From Nipponacmea schrenckii (taxonomy: Eukaryota > Mollusca > Gastropoda > Lottiidae), in the NCBI GenBank assembly GCA_030562195.1, contig CM060200.1, forward strand, positions 10,850,001 to 10,914,000: DNA of 64,000 nt. Reading direction: 5' to 3'. The translations under genes and the position numbers were made by a program. Position 1 is the first letter of the stretch; the number at the start of each line of letters is the position of its first letter. This document shows, piece after piece, positions 13,701 to 58,263 of this stretch. The notes beneath the pieces were generated by a model. It searched no databases, was not told the DNA's origin, and saw only the letters and a list, made by a program, of their open reading frames with translations.

Positions 13701-16178
13701 CAAAATAATAGGGAGTACGATCGACCCGCGAGGATGTCTGGACGTTTTTATTTTCTATTTCTCCAGCTGAAAGTACATACAATATTTTATTCTTTATACA
13801 ATTTACCAGGGGATTATATAGCAGGTACTCGTAAATATATCGCCATTAGGTAAAAGTCAAAATGTATAATAATAGTATAATTACCTTTCCGAAAATGTTT
13901 TCTGTTGCATTTGTTTTAAAGCCAACTATTGAACCCTTTTTATAGACTAACTGGTTTTCAAGGATAATGCCCTCATATAAACAACATCGTAGTTTTTTAT
14001 ATTTAAATGCTTTACAAAGCGTTCTGTCCACACACTCTTTAGAGCACATTAATATTCCAATATCATTTAAAATGAGAAATGGAACTCCGTAGAATGTTTT
14101 GTCCATATAAAAATCTGGCAAAAACGAAATGATATAGTTATAGTATAATTCATTGTTGACTTGGATATATGAAGATACAACAGTACGAACAGAAAACATA
14201 GGGTCGTTGTGATATAATAAGGCATCTTTGATGAACTGATCAAAAAAACTCGTGTCTCTAGTCTAAATTGATATATACCCCCACAAAAACTCTTTAATGA
14301 TTCACCAGACAATAGTAGGCTAGTCTGACGATGAAGTAATTTGTTTCCAACTGATCTATGTAATTATAGACAAAACACAATTCTTGAGGAATTAAAATTT
14401 AATTTGTTAAGTCTTCATTCTCTATTGAGCATTATTGTTTATATGCCCAAGTAAAAACCGTTCAAACATATCGTCAATTTCTTTTGATCTTTTCGTTGTA
14501 TAGGCCTATGTAGGCCTACGGAAAGGGCGATGCATAACCGTTGCAATCAATTCTACCCCCATCTGTCACTCCGTCAGTAAGTTCGTCTCTCCTTGAAAGA
14601 GTTCGCCTCTCGCGTAAGTGATTATCAGTATTATCAATGAATATTATCACAAAAACGAAATTCTTACAAAGACGTAGGGGCCCACCGTTGTAGATGCTAC
14701 CTTTCAACGCTAGAAATACTATCGTATCTTAAAATAAAACAAAATGAAATGTATTAAGGTACCTCAGCACCAAAACGCGCTATATAGCACCTGAATACAA
14801 TTAAAAAAAATAAAGATATTAAAACATTAAAATAAAAAAAAATCCCAGTTGTATCTTTAGAATTAAGACATACACAGAATCGGTTTAATGATGACGTCAC
14901 GTTGCTAAGTCCTGAAAAGTCTCACGAGATAGAAATATATATAGATTTTAAAAATAATTCTCCCAAGAAATGGCAACAACTGGATAATACGTGGATAACC
15001 AACGCATGGACTTTTTATCTAAACATGTGTAGACTATATTTAATGTTACCACCCTGAAATCGAAACGTGGGTAGCGCTAATTACATCAGTAACCGCGTAT
15101 CTACTTATAATTGTGAAGTAATATTAAGCTAGCTTATTGCCGAACACGCTGTGTTTCCACTGAGTTTATCTTGTTCCCGAACCACTTTTGTGTCGATCAA
15201 AGGAGTAGAATCTGGCGAGGTACAAGACTACCGATGTTGCGCGTGCGACCGTAAAACTAGCAGTTTTCTATATTGCCGAACGGGTTTCCATTGTGTTTAT
15301 AAAGCCAGATTTAAAGCAAGCTTCCATTTGGCTCCCGATAAATTGATGGACGTAAAAAGAGAGGTTTTCGGTTCGCGAATCCTTACGGTTCGGCAATTTA
15401 ACAAGAGGAAACACAGAATAACTAGCTGAAGGCCGGCTTTTTGTACAAAGCAGGAAAGAAGTTATAAATACAGTCAAGGTTTAAATATGCCGACATAACG
15501 TATTACACGGAAATGTAAGGAAATACCAATAAATTTATGTTCATTTATACTTATTCCCATGTCCGCAATATGAAAGCATATTTAAAAAGCACAAAAGGCG
15601 TTGAAAAAGAAACATGAATGAAGTTTACAATATGTACCAAAATAATAGGGAGTACGATCGACCCGCGAGGATGTCTGGACGTTTTTATTTTCTATTTCTC
15701 CAGCTGAAAGTACATACAATATTTTATTCTTTATACAATTTACCAGGGGATTATATAGCAGGTACTCGTAAATATATCGCCATTAGGTAAAAGTCAAAAT
15801 GTATAATAATGGTATAATTACCTTTCCGAAAATGTTTTCTGTTGCATTTGTTTTAAAGCCAACTATTGAACCCTTTTTATAGACTAACTGGTTTTCAAGG
15901 ATAATGCCCTCATATAAACAACATCGTAGTTTTTTATATTTAAATGCTTTACAAAGCGTTCTGTCCACACACTCTTTAGAGCACATTAATATTCCAATAT
16001 CATTTAAAATGAGAAATGGAACTCCGTAGAATGTTTTGTCCATATAAAAATCTGGCGAAACGTATGATATAGTTATAGTATAATTCATTGTTGACTTGGA
16101 TATATGAAGATACAACAGTACGAACAGAAAACATAGGGTCGTTGTGATATAATAAGGCATCTTTGATGAACTGATCAT
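7768..16178 (-). CDS. Secreted/membrane PAN-EGF-sushi2-fibrinogen-like protein, 6 exons found
   Basis: Minus-strand exons: 16178-15822, 13075-12988, 12709-12539, 12177-12007, 10301-10164, 8175-7768. All have GT..AG borders; the first junction is phase 0 and the other four are phase 1, giving 444 codons plus one base, with the end open. Exon 1 encodes a signal peptide (M-P-Y-Y then TLCFLFVLLYL) and a PAN/apple-like module (CSKEC, CKAF, RCCLY). Exon 2 is a short EGF-like piece (SCGSGTCPNGQKC). Exons 3 and 4 are both 171 nt, one sushi/CCP module each. Exons 5 and 6 form a fibrinogen-like module of the contactin-associated type: Q-C-K, then DNPWTVI, then CRQYVTYRC, NDCQC, NACNCD, W-x5-GYISYKDDLP. 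The likely role is extracellular adhesion or recognition, by inference from modules. No transmembrane segment was found, but the 3' end is not certain. Repeats sit in the introns. Confidence 0.8.
8250..8410 (+). pseudogene. Penelope-like element C-terminal fragment
   Basis: Degenerate plus-strand match, seen by eye, to the better fragment at 38880-39130. A word for L-P-E-D-x-T is followed by L-N-S-A-R-P-P-G-L-N, parallel to LPEDETTKF and LNTARP there. It lies in the intron between the last two exons of the minus-strand gene. Frameshifts and stops make it non-coding today. Confidence 0.45.
9580..9850 (+). pseudogene. Penelope-like element fragment
   Basis: Contains the same LPEDETN-type word as 38880-39130. 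It also contains AATAAAATATTTGTTCCACC (9767-9786), which recurs near 39371-39390. The shared order indicates two decayed copies of one element. It is intronic in the minus-strand gene. Confidence 0.45.
10390..10960 (+). pseudogene. Penelope-like RT N-terminal fragment split by a SINE
   Basis: The flanks on both sides of the SINE at 10515-10878 (TCTACAACCG...GCACATATTTTTC...CCACGTGGTGCT and CCATCATCCAG) parallel 47750-47900, the start of the Penelope-like ORF. Removing the SINE and one target repeat restores the continuous match. The remnant is therefore older than the SINE. Confidence 0.5.
10501..10892 (+). mobile_element. tRNA-derived SINE with 14-bp target site duplication
   Basis: The body spans 10515-10878. 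It starts with a tRNA-like head holding an A box (GTGGCTCAGTGGGTTA) and a B box (GGGTTCAATCCC). A central region follows with GGGACAATAAACCGAGGCCC and CACGTTAAAGATC words of the kind conserved in widespread invertebrate SINE families, then a short TTCATTTCATTTTCATT tail. The perfect direct repeat TCCAAGTGGACACC flanks it (10501-10514 and 10879-10892), showing target-primed insertion. The intact target repeat suggests moderate age. It sits in an intron of the minus-strand gene. Confidence 0.9.
11380..11540 (+). pseudogene. Penelope-like element C-terminal fragment
   Basis: Reads (with frame changes) like the C-terminal segment at 38960-39140: a serine-acidic-leucine-T-phrase, a D-L-P-x-x-D word, then A-R-Q-T-G-L-N-I-H. 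It is the third such fragment in introns of the same minus-strand gene, all in the same orientation. Confidence 0.45.
13212..13479. mobile_element. Foldback/MITE-like element, copy 1
   Basis: Bounded by perfect 13-bp inverted repeats CTGTGTTTCCACT (13212-13224) and AGTGGAAACACAG (13467-13479). Inside, TTGCCGAAC words occur in both orientations (near 13337 and 13451). Outer flanks AGCTAGCTTATT and AATAACTAGCT extend the symmetry. No transposase is encoded. Its presence in both duplication units means it inserted before the duplication. Confidence 0.7.
13885..14312 (-). pseudogene. Duplicated, frameshifted first exon of the PAN gene
   Basis: This copy of the signal-peptide/PAN exon keeps the hydrophobic leader and the CSKEC...RCCLY module, but in different frames. 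A net 2-base difference at about 14115-14130 (GGCAAAAACGAAATG against GGCGAAACGTATG in the other copy) breaks the frame between them. The donor site at 13885/13884 is retained. An acceptor-like TTTTGCCAG precedes the PAN part, but using it would be out of phase with exon 1. The copy therefore looks non-functional as a first exon. Confidence 0.7.
15149..15416. mobile_element. Foldback/MITE-like element, copy 2
   Basis: Second duplication unit's copy of the element at 13212-13479, offset by 1937 bases. Its right repeat carries one substitution (AGAGGAAACACAG). Confidence 0.7.
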
Positions 16179-16944
16179 AAAACTCGTGTCTCTAGTCTAA
16201 ATTGATATATATCCCACAAAAACTCTTTAATGATTCACCAGACAATAGTAGGCTAGTCTGACGATGAAGTAATTTGTTTCCAACTGATCTATGTAATTAT
16301 AGACAAAACACAATTCTTGAGGAATTAAAATTTAATTTGTTAAGTCTTCATTCTCTATTGAGCATTATTGTTTATATGCCCAAGTAAAAACCGTTCAAAC
16401 ATATCGTCAATTTCTTTTGATCTTTTCGTTGTATAGGCCTATGTAGGCCTACGGATGGGCGATGCATAACCGTTGCAATCAATTCTACCTCATCTGTCAC
16501 TCCGTCAGTAAGTTCGTCTCTCCGTCAAAGAGTTCGCCTCTCGCGTAAGTGATTATCAGTATTATCAATGAATATTATCACAAAAACGAAATTCTTACAA
16601 AGACGTACCGTTGTAGATGCTACCTTTCAACGCTAGAAATACTATCGTATCTTAAAATAAAACAAAATGAAATGTATTAAGGTACCTCAGCACCAAAACG
16701 CGCTATATAGCACCTGAATACAATTAAAAAAAAATAAAGATATTAAAACATTAAAATAAAAAAAAATCCCAGTTGTATCTTTAGAATTAAGACATACACA
16801 GAATCGGTTTAATGATGACGTCACGTTGCTAAGTCCTGAAAAGTCTCACGAGATAGAAATATATATAGATTTTAAAAATAATTCTCCCAAGAAATGGCAA
16901 CAACTGGATAATACGTGGATAACCAACGCATGGACTTTTTATCT

Positions 16945-25240: not shown

Positions 25241-26784
25241 ACTGTAATTCTACCATACCACTGACGTGGTTAGAGATCATGTGTGAAAGACGCGCGCTAT
25301 CACTAATTATTCAAGGAAGGAAGGTTACAGGAAACCAATAGTAAACCAAAGAACAGGATGGGTATAGAAAATCAAGGCTTCTAACAGTTTTCCCCAATAA
25401 GCAGGGTGGGTGTGTCTTTAGAAACTGGCCCATGTGGTCGAACAAAACTAATAAGTAATCTTTCACAGTCACCTCTTAAACTAGCAGTTCTTTCAATGTA
25501 ATGTTTATACACTTCTATAATACACGAATTAGCATCAGGAAAGTTTCTAAATTCAATATCCTTTTGATGAAAGCCTAGGCGAGACTGCTTCAGCAGCGAT
25601 GAAAATGAAATCTTAAAACCAGGGTCACTTATTGACATGTCCTTAAGCTCTAAAGTGAAAAAGGACTGCACTCTTTGTCCTGATTAAATAGCAAGTAGTG
25701 CTACAAACTAATATGTTAAGTTTAAGTGAAATGTCAACCATTGGATGCAAAGTCTTCAAATAATCTAAAACAAGAGTTATGTCCCATGTACTCTTACGTC
25801 TGGGTAATGAGGGTCTTAAATTGATCACTCCCTTCAGAAATCTAACAACTAATTGTTGGATTTGTTCCAACAGGTTGATTATTAACACAATTGTTGACAG
25901 CGCACTCCTGGCTGTGTTTATGGCACTATACCGTAGGCCTTTATTAAACAAAAATGTCAAAAATTCAATCACATCATCGATAGAGGCACAAAAGGGATCA
26001 CAGATTCGTCTATTACAGTATAAAACCCATTGTCTGAGATATGTTCTGTATTGGAACTTTGTAGAGAGCGATCTCCGGATACAAGCATTGCTAGCAGTTT
26101 ATTTTTGGTAAATCTGTGACCTCTTTTGTAGGGTGACTCAGTATCTTTGCTGTGCTAGGTAAAAGAAAGGGTGAAGCAATTAGTAGTCTAACAACTTTGC
26201 CAAACCATGATTGGGTTGTCCACCAAGGAACAATAAGTAAGGTTTTAGCTTTCTCCTGCTCTAGTTTATTCAGAACTTGCCCTATCAAACAGAAAGGTGG
26301 AAAAATATTACAAAAATGATCTTTCCAAGAAATAGAAAAAGCCGCGACAGCGATCGCTGTGGGATCAGGTCTAAACAACACATAATTTGGCAGCTGAGCA
26401 TTAATTCTTGTGGCAAAAAGGTCTATACCTGGCACCCCCATAGGTTAGTCAATTGATTGAAAATGCTGGTATTGAGATGCCATTCTGGGTTGTCAATAAT
26501 ATTCCTGCTTTGATGATCTGCATCCACATTGAAAGCTCCAGGAATGTGTGATGCTGTCAATATTATATTTCTGTCAATACACCATATAACTAATGATCGT
26601 ATTATTTTATTGTAGTCTTCGACTTTACCTCCCTGAGAACTGACATAAGCCACAGCAGTAGTATTGTCAATCTGAATTTGAATGCGTATGTTTCTCAGAT
26701 CTTTAGTAAAAGTTTGTATCTGTATAGGTACGTTGAAAAACCACTTCTGGCATATAATCAACTGAAGGGAGGAGCGCATGCAAA

Positions 26785-28820
26785 TTATTGAGCGGAATTT
26801 AGGCGAGATTTGAAGATCTCCACAGATCCTGCAAGGACTTGGTCCTCTCTCAGGTGATTCCAGTCTATGATAGTCCTGTGGAAATAAGAGTTCTCAAGTG
26901 TTTCTGTTTTGGCAGTTTTAGTTTGGAAACAGCGACTATTATTAGTTACACTATTTTCAACAATGTTTGTTGCGATAAAGTCTTTAAATCACTTTGCTGT
27001 AACTTTACGTTTGGGTCTCACAGGTATGAGATAGGGTTGAGGCTGTATGGCCGGTACCAACCCCTCCACCACTTTGAACAAGAAGGTTAGGCGTAACTCC
27101 TTTCTACGCTGTTGTAATGTTTGCAGGTCCAGGTCCCTGAGCATGTCAGTTACACATCCAGGAGTTCTTGATCTGTAATCACGAGTGATAAAGCGGGCAG
27201 CCTTCCTTTGGATCCTCTCTAGTTTGTCAATGTCTGACTGGAGAAATGGGTCCCATATGATGGCGCCATATTCTAGTGTTGATCTTACAAGTGAGATGTA
27301 GGCCGATTTCCGAGTTATGGCTGGGCAGTGATTAAGATTCCGCTTAATGAAGCCTAAGGTGGAGCCGGCTTTTTTACAGATGTTGTCGATATGGGTTCCC
27401 CAACGGAGTTGAGATGGTGATTCCAAGGTAGGGGCTAGTCGGGACTCCTTTGAGGATAGTTTTGTTGAGCTGGTAGTAGAAGGATGACTTCTGCTTGATG
27501 CTGAGGATGTAGCACTTGTTGGCGTTGAATCGCATGCCCCTTTTCTCGGCCAAGGCCTCAAGGTTCCTGAGGTCTTGCTGAAGGATGGCGTGGTCGCGCT
27601 GCGAGCGTATGATCCTGTATAGCAGGCAGTCATCTGCGAATAGGCGTACTTGGGACTTGACGGCATCAGGTAGGTCATTGATGTGGCGAATAGGAGAGGC
27701 CCTAGGACTGTTCCCTGGGGTACTCCAGAGGCTACATGGACTTCTTTAGACGATTCACCTTCCACCACTACCTTCATGTGACGTTGGCAAAGGAATGCTC
27801 TGATCCATCGTTGGAGATTTCCACGTACACCGTACGAATCTAATTTGTGCAGTAGTTTCCCATGCGGCACCGTATCAAAAGCCTTGGAAAAATCCAATAT
27901 GGCGATGTCTGTCTGGGATCCCTTGTCAAAGTTGGAGACAAAGTCGTTGATTTTGATGGCAAGTTGGGTCTCACATGAGAAGCAGGCACGAAAGCCATGG
28001 TTGAGCGATGATAGAATAGCATGGTTGTCAAAGTAGTTAAGCAGGTGATGACAGACTATGTGCTCGAGTATCTTACTGAGGACTGAGGTTAACGATACAG
28101 GGCGGTAATTAGCTGGTTCTTGGCGGTCTCCTTTTTTAAATACAGGAGCAATATTTGCATTCAGCCAGTCTTGTGGTAGTACACCTGAGTCCAGCGACCG
28201 CTGAAATATCCTGGAGACTCTAGGTGCCAATTCAGATGCACATTCCTTTAATACCATGTTAGGGAGTCCATCAGGCCTTGGGGCTTTCGAGGTTTGGATA
28301 TTGAGTAGCAACTTCAGTACACCTGCCTCGCTGATCTAAATGTCCTGGATGTCATCTTGGATGTGAATACGCACAGGTGGTTAACCAGAGTCACCATCAC
28401 GGGTGAATACGGAGCTAAACTGGTCGATGAGGGCTTCAGCTTTAGATTTCCCATCACTTAGTAGTTGACCTTTGCTCCGTAGTAGAGAGACTCCAATGTT
28501 GTCCTGTTTCTTACTTTTGACATACCTCCAGAGAGGCTTTGTGTTGTTGTTGTCTAGGCCCTTTTGGATGACCTCGTTGACGTAAGACCACTCAGCTCGA
28601 CGAAATTCCCTCTTGCATTGCTTTTGGTGTTGACGGAAGTTGGTCCAGATCCCTGTTTTACGAGCTTGGCGATGCAGTCTTGACATACTTTTTAGTCGTC
28701 TGTTCAGCCAAGGCGGGGCGCTCTTGCTTCTGGATGATTTCGATGGGATAAATTTGTCGATGAGGCGCTGTAGTGATGATTTGAAAGTATCCCAGTTTGT
28801 ACTGTTAATTTTGCTGCCAA
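26785..28820 (-). mobile_element. CR1/Jockey-group LINE fragment nested in DIRS-like element A
   Basis: Minus-strand frames 28686-28381 and 28311-26989 give a linker and reverse transcriptase of a non-LTR element: SKAPRPDGLPNMVL, NYRPVSLTSVLSKILE, DFSKAFDTVPH, GVPQGTVLGPLLF. The catalytic F-A-D-D is present but in a shifted frame (about 27625-27642). Two compensating frameshifts (near 27680 and 27410) surround it, so the copy is dead. The C-terminal DWNHL motif and stop lie near 26790-26880. The element is 5'-truncated, with no endonuclease domain. On each side the host RNase H frame resumes. Confidence 0.85.
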
Positions 28821-28912
28821 AATTTCTTGTTCATTTATATGTTTTGATGATTCCAAGTTTGACCAAGAACCACCTGAAAGTTCCTTCCCAGACTGAGTAA
28901 GGTTTACCCCAG

Positions 28913-28926
28913 CCCCCCCCCCCCCC
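28913..28926 (+). repeat. C14 homopolymer run
   Basis: Fourteen consecutive C on the plus strand within the DIRS-like RNase H remnant. It shifts the frame locally and is a likely site of length error in the assembly. Confidence 0.8.
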
Positions 28927-30446
28927 ACCCATCCCTTTTTCGAAGCATCTGACTGAAAAATTGTGGAAGGATTGCTTAATATAAGAGATTTAAAGGATTA
29001 TTCCACATTTTGTATCCACCAAAGCAAATCTGACTTACAAGTGTGAGTCAAAACAATTTTTGAATCACAATTACCTTTAGCTTCTTTCAGCACTTTACTC
29101 TTAAAATTATCACATTGTCTGTAGTATAATCGAGCATAATTTACCCCATCGACTGCTGAAACCATTAATCCTTTGACTTCTGCTAAAGACCCAATAGAAC
29201 AAGAACAATACATTTGCTTGGCTCAAAGACCGATTTCTCAGGGTGTATTGTAAAGCCCGCCTGCAAAGAAATCTTAACCGTATCCATTACATTGTGTCTG
29301 CAATCATTTAATGTACGTGCTACCAAAAGGGAATCATCAATAAATGATGTATTAGAGTGTCCCTTCTTTCGTAGGTGTGAAAAAAGAACCTTTGTAATCT
29401 TTGTAAAGAGCCTATGTGCGGATGCCAGACCCATCGGTAGGGCTGTGAATTGATAAAGTGAAACTTCGTAAGAGAACTTTAAATATTTCCTGAAATCTTT
29501 TTTAATTGGAATGGCATAATAAGCATCACTCCAGTCAATTGATGCGAAATAGCAATCTTGGGATACTAAATCTATTGCTTGTTGCAAACTACTCATTTTG
29601 AAGTGTCTATAAGAAACATATTCGTTTAGATCCTTTCAATCAAGAATAATTCTAAATGTGTTATCTTTTTTAGGACGAGAGAAGATATTTGATATAAATT
29701 CTACCGATTAATGAGTACATGGCTCAATAATGCCCTTATCAAACAGTTTGGTCATTAGTAATGTAAACTTATGTTCATCGTCCACCCTAATGACAAAAGG
29801 AACCGGAACAAGTTCTTGCAAAGGTTCACTATCAAACTCAATACTTGAGCTACTTATAGCAGATAAAATTGACTTATCAGATGTAAGACTCTTCTAGAAC
29901 TCAAAGTTGTATTTCACTTGACCTGCCTTAAACCTGGCTTTCCATACCGGTAATGAGACACAAAGAAGGTTCAAGAAAGCATTCCATTCAGAAGTTGTTA
30001 AAATTTTACTAACTATATCTATTTCTTCTTGTCTGTGGTTGTCTTGCTTCTGGCATATGAATTGGTTTGGCTGTACCCCGTCGCTCGACGAGGGGTCTTT
30101 TTCCATAAAAAAAAGCCTTGCCTTTATCTGAGGAATAGCGTGATTTTCCTTTGGGATAATTGTGATTATAACTATAACTAGTATTTCTCATCTTAGACCC
30201 CATTTGTTGAATGTCCTTGAGTTCTTTCATCTTCTTCGGTAAATCATCACCAAATAGGAGCTGAGATGCTCCATCCTCAGCATTATTGGCTGCACTACAC
30301 AACTGAGAGAAGAAATCTCATAGCGTCCCTCCTTCTTCTGGTTTAAGTCACACACGGAGGTGTGAGTGCATCTAAAGCTATCTTTATTACTGTAGTAAAA
30401 TCAAGTGAACCTGAAAATCCAGTACTGGTACCAGCTTTCTTAGATA

Positions 30447-31150
30447 GGGGGGGGGGGGCGGGAAAGCACGGGCCTAGGAATCAGACCTAATTTTTATTTC
30501 CTCGCACCGATCGGGATTCGAACCCACGGCACCTAGTCGCCTAGCAGACGACAGTCCAACTCGCTAACCACTGAGTCATTCATCACCCTGAAAAAGTGGT
30601 TTCAGAACTCAGTTTTAACGAGAAGTACTGTCACCTACACGATTCAAATGAATGTTCTCTTACACCCGCTCGGAGAGACATCCATATATCCTGGCACTGG
30701 CGAGATTAGATAGGGGGGGGGGACTACTATCTCGTAGTTCCGGGAAAGCACGGGCCTAGGAATCCGACCTAATTTTTATTTCCTCGCACCGATCGGGATT
30801 CGAACCCACGGCACCTAGTCGCCTAGCAGACGACAGACCAACTCGCTAACCACTGAGCCATTCACCACCCTAAAAAAGTGGTTTCAGAACTCAGTTTTAA
30901 CGAGAAGTACTGTCGCCTTCACGATTCAAATGAATGTTCTCTTACACCCGCTAGGAGAGACAGCCATATATCCTGGCACTGGCAAGATTAGATTAGATAA
31001 GGGGGGGGGGACTAATATCTCGTAGTTCCGGGAAAGCACGGGCCTCGGAATCAGACCTAATTTTTATTTCCTCGCACTGATCGGGATTCGAACCTACGAC
31101 ACCTAGTTGCCCAGCAGACGACAATCCAACTCGCTAACCACTGAGCCTTT
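30447..31150 (-). repeat. Tandem array of three tRNA-derived SINE-like units inserted in gag
   Basis: Three head-to-tail units share GGAAAGCACGGGCCT words at 30460, 30742 and 31030 (spacing about 282 and 288). Each carries, on the minus strand, an A box (TGACTCAGTGGTTAGC or TGGCTCAGTGGTTAGC type) and a B box (GGGTTCGAATCCC). A run of 9-12 G marks each unit start on the plus strand (30447, about 30713, about 31002), preceded by TTAGATA or TTAGATAAG. The third unit is shorter and stops after GCTAACCACTGAGCC. They interrupt the gag frame of element A, which resumes on both sides. Not functional tRNA genes: the cloverleaf is incomplete. Confidence 0.8.
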
Positions 31151-31739
31151 AAATTAGCAGGTCTAGGAAACTTGTCACAAATACCTTTAATAGTTTAATC
31201 TTGGTGCCTCTAGAAACAGGGCCGAATAATTTATAAATAATATCAGCAATCTTGGCGTTTATTTGAGGTCCCGTTTTTTTCACGTGTATTCTTGTTGCAA
31301 AAAATTTTCAAATTCTTCCTCATCATAAGATGAAATTTCACCTTTATCTTTGTCTGAATCGGTCTCCCCTTCTCTCAACAAGGCACCTATTTGATTTACC
31401 ACAGTATCAGTGTCTTCCACTCTTGGAATTTTGTACTTGCTTTGAGTTAAGATGGAAATATCGTCATCGCTATCATACGAGTCTGATATGGAGTGGACTT
31501 CGCCGCCATGTTTGTCATAATCAGGTCTCTTCCTCTTCTTGTCGCTTAGAGCAGGGCCCCTTACGACATCAATAATCATCGATTTTAAATAAGTCTTAAA
31601 TTTATTGAGTTCCAATTCAAAGTAACGCTTAAACACAGCTTCATTTCCCTGAGTCTTCTTATCGAGACCTCTCGGGGGCTGCAATTCTAAAACCTTCGAT
31701 TTAGGCCTAGGCGACAGTGAACCAGTCGAAATACGTATG

Positions 31740-33436
31740 GCAGGATCCGAACCCTGCCTATACTACCTATAATTTCGGTGCAGAATTGAATTCAGAGTCG
31801 GCCGGAAGAAAAGGTTGGACAAAATAATGCTTGAGGAATGGGGTTACGCCAATACCAAAATACTACAGGAGCTGATTAATCGCAATGTGGGATTCGACAT
31901 TTAGTCCTATCTCAAATATACAACGGATATCTTGTTATTATATGACCAAGAATATCGTGAGCGACAATCGATTGATGGCTCTGCATGGGGCTCTTTTCTG
32001 TAAGATCTCCGAGACTTTCAGCTCATTTTAAAGAGGGATAACTCCACCGTCAGGGCAAAGAATTCTCCACAAATACTACAACTAACTTCCAAGGCTATCA
32101 CCGCAAGTCACATAATTCATATCAGGGACGTCGTAAAGGTCCTTTTTTGCCGGACGGAAAGGAAACATGTCGAAATTTTAATATAAACAATTGTAATCGT
32201 TTGGTTAATTGGTTTCGACTTATAGCTCATTACTCTACGGGAACTTGGGTTTAATATGAGCTGGCCAAAAGGAGTTGACCCATGTCAGCAACTAAATTGT
32301 TCGGGAATAACAATTGACACTGTTTCATTCTCTTTATCGAGCACAGAAAAAGGCCGAGTTCCTGGTAATTCTTGAAGATTTTTCCCGTTGCAAACGTGCA
32401 AGTGTCAAGCAAATTCAGTCTTTATGTGGCAAGTTAAACTGGTCTTGCCCAATGGTCAAAGGCGGGCGGATTTTCCTTCGAAGATTCATAGATATTATCT
32501 CCCCGTTACCAAATCGCAATGCCAAGGTTGTGTTATCGGCGAAATTTTTTCTCGACTTGAATTGGTGGATATTATTCATGTTCACTTTTAATGGAACTGT
32601 CAGATTTTTGGACGATAAGTTCGTTACAACATTATATACAGACGCCTGCCAATATGGAGGAGATTGTTATTTTCAAGGTTACTTTTATTACGTCAATTAG
32701 CCGTTAGATTTTCCAGTTTCGCACATGAACATATCAATATTAAGGAGACTTTGTCAGTGGTGTTCGCGGCAATACGTAGCGGTCATCTCTGGAGAAATAA
32801 GACTGTGCTTGTGTATACGGACAACGTGACTACTAAATGTGTTATTAACAAGGGTTCATCCCGCAACAAGATGCGCTACCTGATTCTGCTTCAAGGTTCT
32901 ACGAGCCTGGTCAACTCCAAAAAATCTTTGGTTTTTAAGCAGTTGCGATAATCATTTTCTTACTAGCGAATTGTTGTTTCACATGTCATCAACTTTCTAT
33001 CGTTCCAGGTGGCACCGACAGACATACCTCTAATTTTTTTATACCCAGTTGTGGAACATCGTACTCGCAACGGTTTGGCCAAGTCTACGTCTAAGACATA
33101 TCAGACACATCTCAATTGTTACCTGCCGTTTTGTGTTGCCTGGAACCAGCGCCTGCTATTGAATTTTATATAGCTTATCTAGTTAAGGTTAAGTCTTTTA
33201 AGTATACATGTAGTTTAATCAGATCATATTTGAATATAGTTTCGATTTTCCATAAGACTTAAAAACAGACACCGTATCTCAATGGAGTATTATTCACATG
33301 CTTACTGAGGTCAAGCGTGTTCTTGAGGCTGCTCAGTCATGTGAGGCAGCTATTAAAACTAACATTGAGATCAACCTTCGCTCTTTGATGGATCTCTGTT
33401 GTCACAATAACATCGTGTTTGGGCGGCGTGTATTTT
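31740..33436 (+). mobile_element. DIRS-like retrotransposon B, decayed, head to head with A
   Basis: Plus-strand pieces follow in order. A gag tail has ETCRNFNINNCN (about 32160-32205). Then comes an abrupt jump to the end of the reverse transcriptase (about 32245-32340), so the catalytic core is deleted. The RT/RNase H linker frame 32314-32700 contains SLCGKLNWSCPMVKGGRIFLRR and FFLDLNWW. RNase H frame 32664-32951 contains HEHINIKETL and VYTDNVTTKCVINKG. A degenerate recombinase N-terminal segment runs from about 33060 to 33430. Stops and frameshifts are common, so it is inactive. The tandem-core repeat starts at 33441, right where the match ends. Confidence 0.75.
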
Positions 33437-33440
33437 AGGG

Positions 33441-35509
33441 TTTTTATACGCCCACATAGAAATGTGGACGTATATTGTTGTCGCCCCTGTCCGTCGGTCC
33501 GTCGGTCCGTTGGTCCGTCGGTCCGTCGGTCCGTCGGTCCGTCTGTCAACAATTGTTTGTGGACACTGTAGAGACTACAGTTTTTATTGGAATTTCTTGA
33601 AACTTGGTATACTTGTTTATAATCACTCAAGGAAGAACCCTATCGATTTTGGTATGATTTCGAAAAAAATTCCTGGAATTCTTGGACTTTGAATTTCAAA
33701 TTATTCTGTTTGTAAACAAAAGCTTGTGGACACTGTAGAGACTCCATTTCTTTATGAATCTTTTTGTAACTTGGTATATTTGTTTATTACCATCCAAGGA
33801 AGACCCCTATTGATTTTGATATGATTCTGAAAAAAATTCCTGGAATTCTGGAACTTGGAATTTCGAATGTACTGTTTCTCATCCGTCTGTCAACAATTGT
33901 TTGTGGACACTGTAGAGACTACAGTTTTTATTGGATCTTCTTGAAACTTGGTATACATGTTTATTACCATTCAACGAAGACCCCTATCGATTTTGGTATG
34001 ATTCCGAAAAAAATTCCTGGAATTCTTGAACTTTGAATTTCAAATTGTTCTGTTTGATAACAAAAGCTTGTGGACACTGTAGAGACTCCATTTTTTTTAT
34101 GAATCTTTTTGTAACTTGGTATATTTGTTTATAACCATCCAAGGAAGAACCCTATTGATTTTGATATGATTCTGAAAAAAATTCCTGGAATTCTGGGACT
34201 TGGAATTTCGAATTGTACTGTTTGTCATCCGTCTGTCAATAATTGTTTGTGGACACTGTGGAGACTACAGGTTTCATTGGATTTTCTTGAAACTTGGTAT
34301 ACATGTTTATTATCATTCAATGAAGACCCCTATTGATTTTGGTATGATTCCGAAAAAAATTCCTGGAATTCTTGGATTTGATTTTGACGAAACTTGCTGA
34401 AATTGTTTAATATCACCCAAGAATGAACCCTTTTGAAAATAGCAAATATCGAAATATATTTAATAGGAATTATTGCCCTTGTTCTATAAAATGTGTTGGA
34501 TTTTTGCCTTGTAAACACTCTACAAGTCACAATTCTTGAGCGATTTTGACATAACTTGGCATGAGTATTTGTAATCACCTAAGGATGAACCCTATTGAAA
34601 TTCAATTAAATCGAAAAATATTTAGTATCAGTTATTGCCCTTGTGTTTGTAAACACTCTAGAAAGAACAATTCTTAATGGATTTTGATAAAACTTGGCTT
34701 GAGTATTTGTTTTTACCCAAGGATGAACCTTTTTGAAAATCAAATAAATCGGAATATATTTAGTGTCAGTTATTGCCCTTGTGTTTGAAAACGGGTTTAA
34801 CTTTTTGGCTAATAAACAGTCTAGAAGGTACAATTCATGACCAATGTTGACAAAACTCACTGAAATTGTTGGATATCGCAAGGAATGAGCCTAATTGAAA
34901 ATTATCTAATATGAATTAGTGCCCTTGTTCTTTTAAACGTGTTCGATTTTTGTCTCGTAAACACTCTACATGGCACAATTCTTGATGGATTTCGATGAAA
35001 CTTGGTGTGAGAGTGTGTTATAACCAAAGGATGAACCCTATTGAAAATCAGCGAAATCAAAAAAAATTTTAGTATGAGTTACTGCCCTTGTTCTTGAAAA
35101 CGCATTCAATTTTAGCTTGTAAACATTCTAGAAAGAACTATTCTTAATGGATTTTGATTAACTTTGGCTTGAGTATTTGTTTTTACCCAAGGATGAACCC
35201 TATTATAAATCAAATAAATAGAAATATTTAGTGTCAGTTATAGCCCTTGTTCTTGAAAACACGTTCAATTTTAGCTTGTAAACACTCTAGAAAGAAAAAT
35301 TTTTAATGGATTTTGATGTAACTTGGCTGTGTTATTTGTTGTCTCCCAAGGATGAACCCTATTGAAAATCGAAAAATATTTAGTACAAGTTATTGACCTT
35401 GTTTTTGAAAACGCGTTAACTCGTAAACACTCTAGAAAGAACAATTTTGAATTGATTTTGAATAAATGCTGCCAGTGGGCGTATATTACCTTGCCTGGCA
35501 AGCTATCTT
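33441..35509 (+). mobile_element. Tandem-core interspersed repeat, long copy (pearl/HINE-like)
   Basis: Same ends as the copy at 5767-6458. TATACGCCCAC (33445-33455) is inverted as GTGGGCGTATA (35475-35485), and the right tip holds the palindrome CTTGCCTGGCAAG. A (GTCGGTCC)n stretch follows the left arm. In the first part, the word TGTGGACACTG recurs at 33558, 33725, 33902, 34069 and 34248. The spacing alternates 167, 177, 167, 179: two core types (AATTGTTTGTGG and AAAAGCTTGTGG) form a dimer of about 345 bp. The rest, to about 35460, is more diverged cores with GGATGAACC and AAACACTCTAGAAAG words. No protein is encoded. Confidence 0.75.
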
Positions 35510-35589: not shown

Positions 35590-36089
35590 NNNNNNNNNNN
35601 NNNNNNNNNNNNNNNNNNNNNNNNNNNNNNNNNNNNNNNNNNNNNNNNNNNNNNNNNNNNNNNNNNNNNNNNNNNNNNNNNNNNNNNNNNNNNNNNNNNN
35701 NNNNNNNNNNNNNNNNNNNNNNNNNNNNNNNNNNNNNNNNNNNNNNNNNNNNNNNNNNNNNNNNNNNNNNNNNNNNNNNNNNNNNNNNNNNNNNNNNNNN
35801 NNNNNNNNNNNNNNNNNNNNNNNNNNNNNNNNNNNNNNNNNNNNNNNNNNNNNNNNNNNNNNNNNNNNNNNNNNNNNNNNNNNNNNNNNNNNNNNNNNNN
35901 NNNNNNNNNNNNNNNNNNNNNNNNNNNNNNNNNNNNNNNNNNNNNNNNNNNNNNNNNNNNNNNNNNNNNNNNNNNNNNNNNNNNNNNNNNNNNNNNNNNN
36001 NNNNNNNNNNNNNNNNNNNNNNNNNNNNNNNNNNNNNNNNNNNNNNNNNNNNNNNNNNNNNNNNNNNNNNNNNNNNNNNNNNNNNNNNN
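35590..36089. other. Assembly gap of exactly 500 N
   Basis: Five hundred N, a fixed size commonly used when scaffolding (for instance from Hi-C data), so true distance and even order across it are unproven. Open frames that cross it are meaningless. It cuts off the upstream end of the ALOG-recombinase frame. Confidence 1.
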
Positions 36090-37281
36090 TTTTCAGAGTA
36101 TCTTGATAGATGACGAGAAGATTGACTCGCGTCTTTCTGAACTTGACAAACGTTCTTCCTCTTCTAACGACGTCAAGAGAAAGAATGCTCTTATGAATGT
36201 TTTGATTGATTTTTTGAGTAAATTGTCTCACAAACCAAATTTATCTTCTTGCACCCCTAACGATCTTAGGCGTTTCCTAGTTTGGAAAGACGAGTTCGGG
36301 AAAACGAAAGTTCACAACCTTTCTTGCGTTTATCTTGGGTCGAAGGGTGGTTCATGTCCATGTCCCGTTCTTTTGGCGTCTGGTACTGTTGAATCCATAA
36401 TTAATCGCTTATCCGACCTCTTCCTGCAGCACGGTTTTGGTCGTGTCTGGGATCCTATTCTAAATTCTGGTAATCCAGCGTGTTCACCACTTGTTAAACA
36501 ATATCTTAAGCTTGTAAAAGAGGAACAAGCTCGGTCTCATGTCCTACCTAAACAGGCGAAACCAATCTTTATAGGTAAAATAAGGCGCAAGTCTATTTAT
36601 ATTCAAAAAGAACTGGAACGAAATGATCTATCTTTAAGAGAAAAATACACTTTATCTAGAGACCAAGCTTGGTTTAAAATTCAGTTTTTTGCAGGTGACA
36701 GAGCAAGTGATCTAGCTCTTGTCGTGTGCCAGGAAATTAAATTATTAACCGATAATTCTGGTTTTGTTTTCAGCCACACGTTTGGGAAAACATTGCGTGG
36801 GTCCAAAAAGAATCAATTTGTAATTAAACGCTGTGATGATAAAGTAATTTGCCCTGTCTATGCACTTGAATCACATTTGAATTATTGTCGGTCTATGAGT
36901 GTTGATATTACTCGGGGATATGTCTTTCGTGTCGTATCAGATGTGGGTAGCGTCCTTGATCAACCTGTATCGTACTCTGTTGTTTACGAACGGTTAAGAT
37001 TTTATATGGTAAATTTAGGTATTTATGAAGGTGAAACGCCTCACAGTTTTCGAAGCGGGTGTGCCCTAACCCTCGCCTTATCCGAATCGGATATTCCCTC
37101 GTCCGAGCTTATGAGTCACCTAGGGTGGTTTTCAGAAAAAAGTGCAGATTATTATTCTAGAGCGCATGTTCGCCATGGTATAAAAGTCGCCGAAAAATTG
37201 GTCAAAAATATTATGAACTCGGAAATTGAACAAATGTACAATGAAAGCATTGACTTATGCCAGTTGAAAAAAGCTTTTTAA
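36090..37281 (+). CDS. ALOG-domain tyrosine recombinase of a DIRS1-type element, 5' end in the gap
   Basis: The frame is open from the gap edge to TAA at 37281. There is no ATG before residue 31 when TTG 36103 is counted as residue 1, so the true start is probably in the gap. Residues 27-120 fit the ALOG fold: PNDLRRFLVWKDEFGKTKVH, with zinc ligands H71, C75, C85 and C87 (KVHNLSC, CPCP), then GTVESIINRL. The recombinase core follows: R200 in GDRASD, H314-x-x-R317 in HSFRSG, H339 in SHLGWF and a Tyr nucleophile at 350 or 351 (ADYYSR). All catalytic positions are present without stops or frameshifts. In the literature ALOG was traced to the DNA-binding domain of such integrases in DIRS1-type retroposons, later the plant LSH1/G1 regulators. 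The protein would integrate circular element DNA by site-specific recombination. This copy looks young and may be intact. Confidence 0.85.
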
Positions 37282-37501: not shown

Positions 37502-37820
37502 TATTTTCCCCCAGAACTCATATGGCGGAAACTGCAGTCAAAGTAGATAGCTATGAGGATATGCTTATATCCTCAGTGATATATGCGCATGTCTGCAAGT
37601 GACGTCATCTTCCTCTTTTATTGATTATTCGCCTAGAGAGTTCCTAGAGAAGCTCTCTGCTCCTATGCATGCACTATTGGTATTGAAGATCATTTCGACC
37701 CACCCTATCGTCCCTCCCTAATTTTAAAGATTTGGCAACAGTTTCTGTCTACCCTATTTTCCCCCAGAACTCATATGGCGGAAACTGCAGTCAAAGTAGA
37801 TAGCTATGAGGATATGCTTA
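37502..37820. repeat. Perfect 66-bp split direct repeat (37502-37567, 37755-37820)
   Basis: TATTTTCCCCCAGAACTCAT plus 46 further bases occurs twice without mismatch, 187 bp apart, starting 220 bases after the recombinase stop. The first copy ends in a hairpin, GAGGATATGCTTATATCCTC (37556-37575), formed with the spacer. Ngaro/PAT-type tyrosine-recombinase retroelements end in a B1-A2-B2 split direct repeat, which this matches in position and form. The A1 partner (187-bp spacer sequence) would be at the element's 5' end and was not found, probably in or beyond the gap. Confidence 0.75.
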
Positions 37821-41580: not shown

Positions 41581-43218
41581 TTAAAGATTTAAATAATGTT
41601 CAGCATATTTTTCCGTAGCCATTCTATCTGGTTTTCTATTACGATTGACGGGAATCGAGTCCATTAAAATATAATAGCGTGGACATGCTGGTACATGGTC
41701 TAGATCTCTGGAAACAAAACTATTCTTACAAAATTCTTCTATATGTTCCACGCTGTATTTTGATCCAGGAAGCAGCACAATGCATGCGCATATCTCTTGA
41801 CCCAACTCAACATCCGGGACCTTTACTACCATGACGTCTTGAACTTCGGGACATCGTCTAATAATTTGCTCGATCCAAGTGGGATGAAAATAGCTACCAC
41901 CTCGGACAATGACATCTTTTGTTCGCCCAAAAACTATCAGTTCGCCATTTTTATTGAAATATCCCGAATCATTCATATTAAAAAACCCGTCTGAGTCAAA
42001 AGCCTCCTCAGTCAATTTTCGGTCTCCGAAATATCTTTTCAGTAACCATTTCGTTTTAACATGGATGTTACCGATAGTCCCTTGAGGTACCGGGACATTA
42101 TTCTCATCTTTAAGGATAATCTCGGCCCCACCCCGAGCAACCCCTGTGTTAAAGTCTTCATATGGTGTATTTTTATCAATCTTTTTACACGTGACCAAAC
42201 TGCTTTCAGAAGCTCCATATAAATTGTATACTACATCGAAATGAGTTCGACAGCAATCAACGATGGCGGCAGTTATTGGTCGACTCAAAAGTATACATTC
42301 AATGTGTTGCGACCAATCCTTAGGACGCACTTTTTCTTTTTTTACCTTGAAAAGTTCATTTAAAATAAGATGTTCAACCAATAATAAATCGCATTTTTCT
42401 TGACTAAGGATGTCATAAATATATTGGCCTATTGAAGGTATCAAAGGAGGGTTTCGCTGGTCTATGCGAACAGATTTCAATCCTGTAGATAAATAGTGAT
42501 GTGGTACACCTGGTATCCAACATAATGAGTGACAATTCAAAAAACCGTCTCGGCATATAGGTTGCACAGGCTCCAGGAAGTATTTCATCATTAGATGGGA
42601 ATGTACCGTCATTTTTGAAAGGCCAGTTGTTCCAGACGACAAAATTATGACAGCATCGGTGTTACCATCATAACAAATGACTTCATCATCTGTGTCGACA
42701 TTTTTGGGCAGTTGATTATCCCATTTGAATCCAATATTTTGTTTCACCCCTGAGTATAAGACATGCGTGAGATATGGAAGTGTCTTGGAAGAAACAGAAT
42801 TTCCATCTCCATTGTCGATTAGCTCTGAAAATAGTTTCCTACATTCGTCTTTAGGATCAGACGATATAATCAAAAGTGGACTTTTTGTTTTGTTGATGTT
42901 TTGGATTAAAATAGAGCCATCTTTAAGTTGAAGCTTACCATTCATAATGACACAGCCTGCAAGGATGACCCCGAAAAATGCGATGAATCCGTTCGGGGAA
43001 TCCGGTAACAGACTAAAAATAACTTCCCCAGGCTGTATACCTAGTTTTCTCAGCTGCCTGGCGAAATACACAGACTGGTCTAAAATCTCCTTACATGTTA
43101 GAGAGGTTCTCAAACCATCTTTATCAATAAACACGAAGGCTTCAGAATTCGGATGAATCTTTGCCCAATGCTGCAATCTTTCTGGAATGCTGTAATTTTG
43201 GGGTGAATCTTTTTCCAT
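41581..43218 (-). CDS. AMP-forming acyl-CoA synthetase-like enzyme (adenylate-forming family), single coding exon
   Basis: Intact 545-residue frame from ATG 43218, a normal length for ANL-superfamily acyl-CoA or 4-coumarate-CoA ligases. Motifs in order: phosphate-binding loop IILSSGTTGLSKM (191-203), YGASESS (334-340, usually Y-G-x-T-E), MNDSGYF (415-421, usually G-D-x-G), hinge GRTKDVIVRGGSY (431-443), and C-terminal NRNRKPDR (525-532) with the catalytic Lys in the usual place. Such enzymes activate a carboxylate to acyl-AMP and then a CoA thioester; the substrate cannot be told. No signal peptide or C-terminal peroxisomal SKL is visible (it ends EHYLNL), so a cytosolic location is likely. 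A 5'-UTR intron precedes the ATG by three bases. The coding part has no introns, which fits either a lineage-specific family with intron loss or an old retrocopy that gained a 5' exon. Confidence 0.9.
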   Translation of the reverse strand: MEKDSPQNYSIPERLQHWAKIHPNSEAFVFIDKDGLRTSLTCKEILDQSVYFARQLRKLGIQPGEVIFSLLPDSPNGFIAFFGVILAGCVIMNGKLQLKDGSILIQNINKTKSPLLIISSDPKDECRKLFSELIDNGDGNSVSSKTLPYLTHVLYSGVKQNIGFKWDNQLPKNVDTDDEVICYDGNTDAVIILSSGTTGLSKMTVHSHLMMKYFLEPVQPICRDGFLNCHSLCWIPGVPHHYLSTGLKSVRIDQRNPPLIPSIGQYIYDILSQEKCDLLLVEHLILNELFKVKKEKVRPKDWSQHIECILLSRPITAAIVDCCRTHFDVVYNLYGASESSLVTCKKIDKNTPYEDFNTGVARGGAEIILKDENNVPVPQGTIGNIHVKTKWLLKRYFGDRKLTEEAFDSDGFFNMNDSGYFNKNGELIVFGRTKDVIVRGGSYFHPTWIEQIIRRCPEVQDVMVVKVPDVELGQEICACIVLLPGSKYSVEHIEEFCKNSFVSRDLDHVPACPRYYILMDSIPVNRNRKPDRMATEKYAEHYLNL

Positions 43219-43221
43219 GAT

Positions 43222-56928: not shown

Positions 56929-57081
56929 GGCTGGTGTTTAGGTCAACTTCAGCAAACAGCTTTCTGCTTCACCATTTAAACAAGTATTTGGAACATAAAG
57001 ATACATTGAACAGCGAAATTTAAATTTGATAATTTGGAGCAACTGGCAGTGATTTTGAAAAACAAGGATTAGAAACGCAAA

Positions 57082-58263
57082 ATGGTTCTTCAAACTACGC
57101 CAATAATGAATAACAGTCTTGGATTGAGATCATCATGTATGATGGGAGGGCAGTATCCATTAAGTTACCTTCCTCATCCCTCATATCAACAATCAGCAAC
57201 ACAGAATAATCTGATGGCGTCACCAACACTTGATGGTTCCCAACTTATACCATCTACTAGGAACTTACAGAACAGTCTATCATCACCGTCTAGTAATGTG
57301 AGTGACTCCGACGCGAGAAGTAGCGACAGTCCGCTATCGAACCAAGGCGATTCTTCAAAATCACCGAATTTCTTGGGTTCTGAAGAATCAGAAGAAGATA
57401 ACGACCAATCTGTTTCCGGAACATCAACCTTATCGCAACGAAATCGAAGATTTGCTGATGTTAAGCCACCATATTCTTACATTGCTTTGATAACTATGGC
57501 TATAGAATCTTCGACAAGTGGAATGATGACGCTGAATGAAATTTACGCTTTTATCATGAACAGATTTCCATATTTCAAGCAAAACCAACAAAGATGGCAG
57601 AACTCGATTCGTCACAACCTTTCTCTAAATGATTGTTTTATGAAGGTACCCAGAGGACCAGGGCGCCCAGGAAAAGGAAACTACTGGTCTCTTCATCCTT
57701 CATGTGGAGATATGTTCGGTAATGGTAGTTTTCTCCGAAGAGCTAAAAGATTCAAGTTACCTAAGATGAAACGCGCAGAAAGCGCTGCTCTACAAGCTAT
57801 GAATGCTTATGCTCCGTTTGGATTTTATGGAAACCCGTCTTTAAACCCACTGTCACTTTCAGCATTACCTCAAAGTTTAGCTCAATCACAGCAATATGGA
57901 TACCAGATGAACTACCCAACGTCTAACCCAGCTTACTCCTCTTATTACCCTACCACCAGTGTTAATAGTGCTTTACAAAGTTCGACCTTAGGAAACAGTT
58001 TAACGAGTGCTATTAGTAATTCGTTCGGATCAAGTTTAGGAAACTCATTAAGCTCGTCTCTTGGAAACAGTTTAGGGTCGTCTTATGGAAATGGACTCGG
58101 AAATGGGCTGAGTTCCTCTTTGCCAAGTTCCTACTTACAAATGCCACCAATATCAACTGCACAGAGTACTACATCTTCCCTGCCGAATTACTCTTCCTTA
58201 CAACAACCAGGTTATCACCAAACATCTCAATATTCTTCAAGATTTGGCAACACTCAATGTTAA
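57082..58263 (+). CDS. FoxAB: Forkhead transcription factor, FoxAB-like, single exon
   Basis: Intact 393-residue frame. Residues 127-226 are a complete forkhead DNA-binding domain: [14 protein letters not shown], recognition helix [15 protein letters not shown] (172-186), wing region [20 protein letters not shown], then the basic FLRRAKRFK that doubles as nuclear localisation signal. The mix of FoxA-like ([12 protein letters not shown]) and FoxB-like ([19 protein letters not shown]) features is why FoxAB is preferred over FoxA, FoxB or FoxD. FoxAB is a bilaterian class reported in invertebrates and absent from vertebrates. The N-terminal part is Ser-rich with an acidic patch (SEESEEDND). The C-terminal part is Ser/Gln/Tyr-rich with a run of L-G-N-S-L-type repeats (303-345). 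A single exon is usual for several Fox classes. It acts in the nucleus as a sequence-specific regulator; targets are unknown. An AATAAA follows at 58513. Confidence 0.85.

Follow-up and report, generated by a model that had tools for sequence, protein, structure and literature searches.

An ALOG-domain tyrosine recombinase frame from Nipponacmea schrenckii, probably part of a PAT-type retrotransposon with a predicted recombination site and predicted splicing

The window analysed here is a stretch of 64,000 nucleotides from Nipponacmea schrenckii (contig CM060200.1, positions 10,850,001 to 10,914,000). Directly after an assembly gap, it contains an open frame for a tyrosine recombinase (YR) that carries an ALOG domain. 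The plant ALOG proteins (LSH1/G1) are transcription factors which, unlike the window YR, have no catalytic domain, and a structure of a plant ALOG bound to DNA has been solved (8p5q). An origin of ALOG from a retroposon integrase was proposed in 2012 by Iyer and Aravind, who also noted inactive metazoan ALOG copies in molluscs (PMC3537659). The locus raises the questions of what kind of element carries the frame, and what DNA its recombinase might recognise.

Comparison of sequences indicates that what the window contains is probably the 3′ portion of a PAT-type retrotransposon (order DIRS) that is young and present in multiple copies, and which would include a recombinase site and a Pol and YR expressed by splicing. 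The ALOG-YR family is already known. The predicted recombination site and the suggested splicing layout appear to go beyond published work, as far as the surveyed literature shows.

The recombinase and the element that carries it

The frame is an open ALOG-domain tyrosine recombinase and part of a retrotransposon (Table 1). It scores 69.2 bits against the Pfam profile PF04852, for which the curated cut-off is 26.6. Its structure model matches both Cre and the plant ALOG-DNA structure 8p5q, the plant fold being reproduced by the ALOG part, and the HxxxC and CxC motifs are placed between model helices 56–67 and 97–113, which are ALOG core helices 2 and 3. Tyrosine recombinases use the catalytic set R, K, H-x-x-R, H/W and Y, and this set is complete in the window YR. 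The original prediction had described an ALOG zinc pattern, a complete recombinase core free of stops, and a retroposon source, and had proposed the profile search and the overlay on plant ALOG. All of this is confirmed: the zinc pattern is H75, C79, C89 and C91, the frame is open over 396 residues, the profile match is significant (4.7e-19), and fuller genomic copies encode Gag, reverse transcriptase (RT) and RNase H. A search for relatives gave 203 matching proteins at E <= 0.001; among the best 120 of these, the named sources are oysters, mussels, a clam, a nemertean and a hemichordate. The viral contigs contained no relative of the 27-row YR alignment.

The host genome (399 Mb) contains 99 recombinase-matching stretches at E <= 0.001, from 105 scored candidates. 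The copies considered in detail were grouped into subfamilies S1 (the window copy, L021, L022 and L023), S2 (L024, L025 and L029), S2b (L037 and L040), S3 (L026, L027 and L028) and S4 (L039, a decayed copy). Within S1, the YR DNA of the window is 98.9, 99.2 and 98.6% identical to that of the three other copies, the last over 1115 of 1192 bases, which bears out the earlier suggestion of a young copy. The 66-bp repeats B1 and B2 are the same in all four S1 copies, and the 63-bp repeats A1 and A2 have one or two differences in three of them. Of the best four S1 matches, two (the window and the locus on C13) are free of stops, and the loci on C10 and C5 have one each; the Pol frames of L021 and L022 are split into pieces.

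Immediately 3′ of the gap the frame opens at a splice-acceptor-like site, and it contains no stop, as might be expected of a domesticated host gene, in which the ALOG-YR would be retained as a host DNA-binding protein with its upstream exons in the gap. Domestication is nevertheless very improbable. The same YR is found at three other loci with the identities given above and with the element repeats downstream, and there is no sign of strong constraint in the counts of synonymous and nonsynonymous differences, which are small: 3 and 10 between the window and L021, 3 and 6 between the window and L022, and 0 and 8 between L021 and L022. The S1 copies are young, with no clear post-insertion constraint evident from so few differences.

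In the window, B1 and B2 are identical base for base and 187 bp apart. L021, L022 and L023 keep the 5′ end of the element, where A1 repeats the start of this 187-bp interval (A2), giving the repeat order A1 ... B1-A2-B2. The layout of the fuller copies is A1-Gag-RT-RNase H-YR-B1-A2-B2, with unit lengths of 5820 bp (L021), 5543 bp (L022) and 4899 bp (L023, which has an internal deletion). The A1–B2 unit of L021 encodes Gag, RT (RVT_1, 1.3e-14), RNase H (RT_RNaseH, 8.6e-07) and YR. Its Gag translation shows the zinc-knuckle pattern CxxCxxxxHxxxxC, at a Pfam score below the cut-off, and the Gag model P0122 (mean pLDDT 52) had no structural match at E <= 0.001. One point against the proposed element is that no Pfam match to a methylase-like (MT) domain was found, though the frame runs on past RNase H.

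The visible repeats of the window copy itself are B1-A2-B2 only, and A1 was not found in the window. In L022 and L021, 3.8–4.1 kb of element (A1, Gag and Pol) lies upstream of the YR frame. In the window, therefore, only the 3′ part of the element can be seen: whatever preceded the YR exon, Gag and Pol included, has either been lost or falls within the 500-N gap. A tblastn search of the window with 121 proteins found nothing at 1e-3 beyond the YR frame. When the search was relaxed and 15 N-terminal pieces were used, all further matches were weak, the best (E 0.005) being to another DIRS element on the minus strand.

The RT/RNase H pieces at 32004–33260 (+) were considered as the upstream half of the element and rejected, as by eye they run into an apparent YR start of their own. 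They are fragments of another element, in which an RT thumb match (0.0011, below the cut-off) is followed by this apparent recombinase N-terminus.

PAT elements have split direct repeats, and DIRS1 elements have inverted repeats (PMC3266345, PMC4157794). The domain content of the DIRS order, RT-RNase H together with YR, is present in L021, and lies outside view in the window copy. A classical DIRS1-type element, in which the terminal repeats are inverted and an internal complementary region is present, would also fit this content; the name used in PMC3537659 agrees with it, and it was the class given in the original prediction. However, the terminal repeats are direct and follow the order A1..B1-A2-B2 in S1 to S4 (in S1, in the three other copies), and A2 and B matched the plus strand only in the S1 copies when both strands were searched. 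These repeats contradict a DIRS1-type element, and the original assignment did not stand: because the terminal repeats are split direct and not inverted, the element is assigned to the PAT type within the DIRS order.

More specifically, the zinc finger in Gag and the internal repeats 3′ of the YR are those of the echinoderm form of Pat1-like elements. The published examples, reported from Lottia gigantea, similarly have a zinc-finger Gag, RT-RNase H, and a YR that comes last and in the same direction, with internal repeats downstream (PMC4157794). An ALOG domain, introns and a joined-end site are not described in the available sections of that paper. The retroposons of Iyer and Aravind (PMC3537659) have an ALOG zinc ribbon joined to a YR, with RT-RNase H upstream. 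They are found in molluscs including Lottia, and their copies have proliferated. Compared with these, the window element adds resolved split direct repeats, and its family has a proposed Gag leader in place of the N-terminal zinc ribbon; neither a recombinase site nor splicing was found in the sections of that paper available.

A predicted recombination site at the joined ends

Where an element has split repeats, its two joined ends are represented by the B1|A2 junction. Across this junction in the window there is an inverted repeat (37547–37562 and 37567–37582, with 13 of 16 positions paired), and the probability that one lies by chance no more than 10 bp from a given point of the window is 0.005–0.013. 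The half-sites are CTATGAGG-12-CCTCAGTG in S1, CACTTGGG-12 bp-CCCAAGTG in S2 and CACTGAGG-12-CCTCAGTG in S3. S2b has the half-sites of S2 with a different spacer, and S4 has CACTGAGG and TCTCAGTG. The mean pairwise identity between S1 and S4 inclusive is 75 and 81% for the half-sites, 58% for the spacer (the S4 spacer being compared minus its duplication) and 29% for the outer flanks. On the basis of these comparisons, the inverted CACTGAGG-like half-sites with a 12-bp spacer, common to four subfamilies, are predicted to be the recombinase site. Related arms, ACACTGGGG and CTCAGTGT, are present in the broken relative L014, which was excluded from the comparison.

An inverted repeat at this place might instead form an RNA hairpin, with a role in reverse transcription or 3′ end formation. 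We regard this as unlikely, given that the repeat lies a few bases from the joined ends, that the 12-bp spacing is equal, and that the outer flanks of the subfamilies are near chance identity.

Within the 399 Mb, CACTKRGG-N12-CCYMAGTG is present at 12 places, and at 10 of them an ALOG-YR match lies 186–394 bp to the 5′ side. When the pattern was reversed as a control, it had no occurrence in the same sequence. The pattern was derived from S2 and S3, and most of the ten YR-linked sites are not independent; the result therefore establishes the site as part of the element, but does not count as an independent discovery. The other two places (C8:12417064 and C12:197722) have no listed recombinase match within 10 kb, and are candidate element remnants.

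Several points weigh against the predicted site. The half-site borders were fixed after the sequences had been seen. The left half-site of S1 deviates from the others, the right half-site of L023 has one change, the spacer in the internal copy of S4 is 7 bp longer, and the pattern fails to match S1 or this internal copy. A split repeat with the site was not found in 10 of the 13 stretches downstream of other YRs (L030–L042).

We propose that genomic RNA would be copied into a circle, and that the joining of its ends would restore the B1|A2 site. The inverted CACTGAGG-like half-sites would be bound by two YR molecules, with the ALOG helix bundle and zinc ribbon placed on the half-site and the catalytic domain at the 12-bp centre, and the YR would then carry out recombination between the circle and a short target that matches it. 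The 12 spacer bases would thereby be divided in S1, 9 staying at the 3′ end and the remaining 3 at the 5′ end, as is seen. In some other copies the spacer match extends a few bases further or carries a change, and a varying extent of match at copy ends is as expected if target bases are shared. In comparison with Cre-loxP, the recombinase has 16% identity to Cre and both half-site and spacer differ; for the window element, integration of a circle is a proposal.

Table 1. Positions in the window of the recombinase frame, its domains and residues, and the associated repeats and predicted sites
Feature	Position	Strand	Remarks
Assembly gap, 500 N	35590..36089	.	directly 5′ of YR frame
Predicted 3′ splice acceptor of YR exon	36090..36096	+	visible part ttttcag; N gap directly upstream
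ALOG-domain YR open frame	36091..37281	+	396 aa
ALOG domain, residues 24–144	36160..36522	+	PF04852 4.7e-19; 8p5q match
Zinc-ribbon ligands H75, C79, C89, C91	36313..36363	+	ligand role from PMC3537659
YR catalytic domain	36658..37164	+	R204 36700, K233 36787, H318 37042, R321 37051, H343 37117, Y355 37153
B1, first copy of 66-bp direct repeat	37502..37567	+	split direct repeat
Predicted recombinase site at joined ends	37551..37578	+	CTATGAGG, 12-bp spacer 37559–37570, CCTCAGTG
A2, 63 bp	37568..37630	+	repeated as A1 (98% identity) at 5′ end of L021, L022 and L023
B2, second 66-bp copy	37755..37820	+	identical to B1; 3′ end of element

Predicted splicing of Gag, Pol and YR

The Gag frame of L021 is interrupted by two predicted GT-AG introns. 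When intron 1 is removed, the resulting stretch aligns with related Gags with no gap at the joint. A donor in Gag exon 3 (D3, AAA|GTAAGG) ranks 2 of 346 GTs. Of the 329 AGs, the Pol acceptor takes first place and the YR acceptor, TACTTCTATTTTCAG|AG, takes fourth; this last is the same site as the ttttcag of the window. Both acceptors join D3 in frame. For the gag introns, the donor ranks are 3 and 17 of 346. Gag intron 2, D3 and the Pol and YR acceptors are found at homologous places in S2, S3 and S4, and intron 1 is also present in the decayed S4 copy. YR and Pol thus open at acceptor-like sites, at matching places, in all four subfamilies. In L025, D3 ranks 10 of 405 and the YR acceptor 7 of 360, and in L028 the YR acceptor ranks 6 of 367. 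In-frame stops immediately precede the YR frame of S2, which has its first methionine at residue 182, beyond the ALOG domain; in S3 the first methionine of Pol is residue 172.

Database proteins point in the same direction. The Gag-leader profile is matched by 21 of the 128 proteins collected, and 15 of the 21 also carry ALOG; these come from Magallana/Crassostrea, Ostrea, Saccostrea, Mytilus and Lineus. The distance from the Gag-YR joint to the D-x-R-L motif in the oyster proteins is that of the window acceptor to within one residue, and in a Mytilus gene model the joint is one residue further from the motif.

These observations suggest that one Gag leader is joined by splicing to the Gag C-terminus, to Pol or to YR. 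YR and Pol would be translated from spliced RNAs, with the N-terminal Gag leader (about 150 residues) joined in frame, and this tag could bring both enzymes into the particle, the unspliced RNA serving as the template.

There are weaknesses in this proposal. The splice scores use an approximate consensus, and they cover sites of L021 and L025 and, for D3 and the YR acceptor, L028. Some ranks are poor: donor D2 of L021 at its 17 of 346, the gag acceptors of L021 at 24 and 23 of 329, the Pol acceptor of L025 at 19 of 360, and D3 of L028 at 36 of 394. The first methionine of YR is residue 33 in S1 and 21 in S3, and that of Pol is residue 3 in S2 and 6 in S4, so that the argument from start codons fails for Pol in general, and is strong only for the YR of S2 and the Pol of S3. 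As for the database proteins, three of the 15 (P0031, P0048 and P0056) helped to build the Gag-leader profile, the match of P0091 is weak (1.3e-05), and the Gag-YR fusions of oysters, mussels and nemertean are database gene models, which may be predictions.

The early methionines of Pol in S2 and S4 would also suit an element that is otherwise as described above, but whose apparent splice sites are incidental and whose Pol and YR arise through frameshifting, re-initiation or read-through; in DIRS elements, frames often overlap (PMC3266345). Set against this, the acceptor-like sites are homologous in all four subfamilies with joints in frame, the S2 YR lacks any methionine before residue 182, and gag intron 1 breaks a stretch that aligns without a gap once joined. 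Incidental splice sites are therefore rather improbable in our view, and splicing from one leader remains the preferred explanation.

The element would thus be a retrotransposon that builds its enzymes through splicing, a form of expression not found for this group in the surveyed literature. No splicing of YR elements was found in the YR-element literature surveyed; the founding work of Goodwin and Poulter was outside this survey and could report introns. The mentions of splicing in the Dictyostelium paper concern an assay cassette, those in the nematode paper are a general remark and a reference, and the intron passages in the available sections of the Ectocarpus paper concern the host genome or general transposable element annotation.

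Relation to plant ALOG, and neighbouring features

The original prediction saw in this copy a good source for testing the origin of plant ALOG proteins and the sequence that ALOG binds. An origin from such retroposons stands as published (PMC3537659). In a tree of 114 domains, however, plant LSH3 groups outside the mollusc clade, with YRs many of which have an extra N-terminal zinc motif, and therefore the window copy is not the nearest relative of plant ALOG; the support for this placement, from a single plant sequence, is weak (0.25, 0.58, 0.75 and 0.84 up the path). Five ALOG recombinases in the wider group with LSH3 (P0082, P0084, P0088, P0095 and P0119) have the N-terminal zinc motif CPxCxYxNDxxFxFCQxCGY.

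For the DNA-binding question the copy does retain its value. The predicted half-site would give the ALOG domain, in its transposon form, a defined DNA sequence as target, and the retroposon-integrase origin proposed in 2012 would therefore be testable at the level of DNA recognition. Plant ALOG proteins reportedly bind YACTGTW, a motif not found in the literature surveyed. If it is right, a CACTG core would be common to S1 (right arm), S3 and S4, but not to S2, which has CACTT. We tentatively put forward, as a possibility rather than as the expected outcome, the combined proposal that ALOG-PAT elements are intron-bearing, with alternative splicing of one Gag leader to three ends (Gag, Gag-Pol and Gag-recombinase), and that the CACTG half-site core is an ancestral target still read by plant ALOG proteins.

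Downstream of the element, on the minus strand, there is a frame of 546 residues for an AMP-binding enzyme (41584–43221, 9.6e-35). Its best match is to Lottia gigantea (51%), followed by several Patella proteins (37–40%). This supports the mollusc host suggested from the letters alone and, because the matches are to Lottia and then Patella, makes a patellogastropod host likely.

Upstream of the gap, the stretch 25646–31762 (-) consists of broken retroelement remains, with an RT match (PF00078, 2.2e-16) at 29186–29635. Frames that look by eye like Gag, RNase H and the start of a DIRS-like recombinase are also present; no Pfam match was found at 25646–26098 or 26426–26893. These remains are interrupted by an RT like that of a long interspersed nuclear element at 26992–28335 (6.8e-22). 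Degenerate tandem arrays with units of about 140–180 bp occupy 33538–35465, 5′ of the gap. Further away, two minus-strand frames 1.9 kb apart (13849–14262 and 15786–16196) are nearly identical over most of their length, which indicates a recent tandem duplication, and an uninterrupted 396-residue frame at 57073–58260 (+) contains a forkhead domain (3.4e-38) and is probably a host Fox gene.
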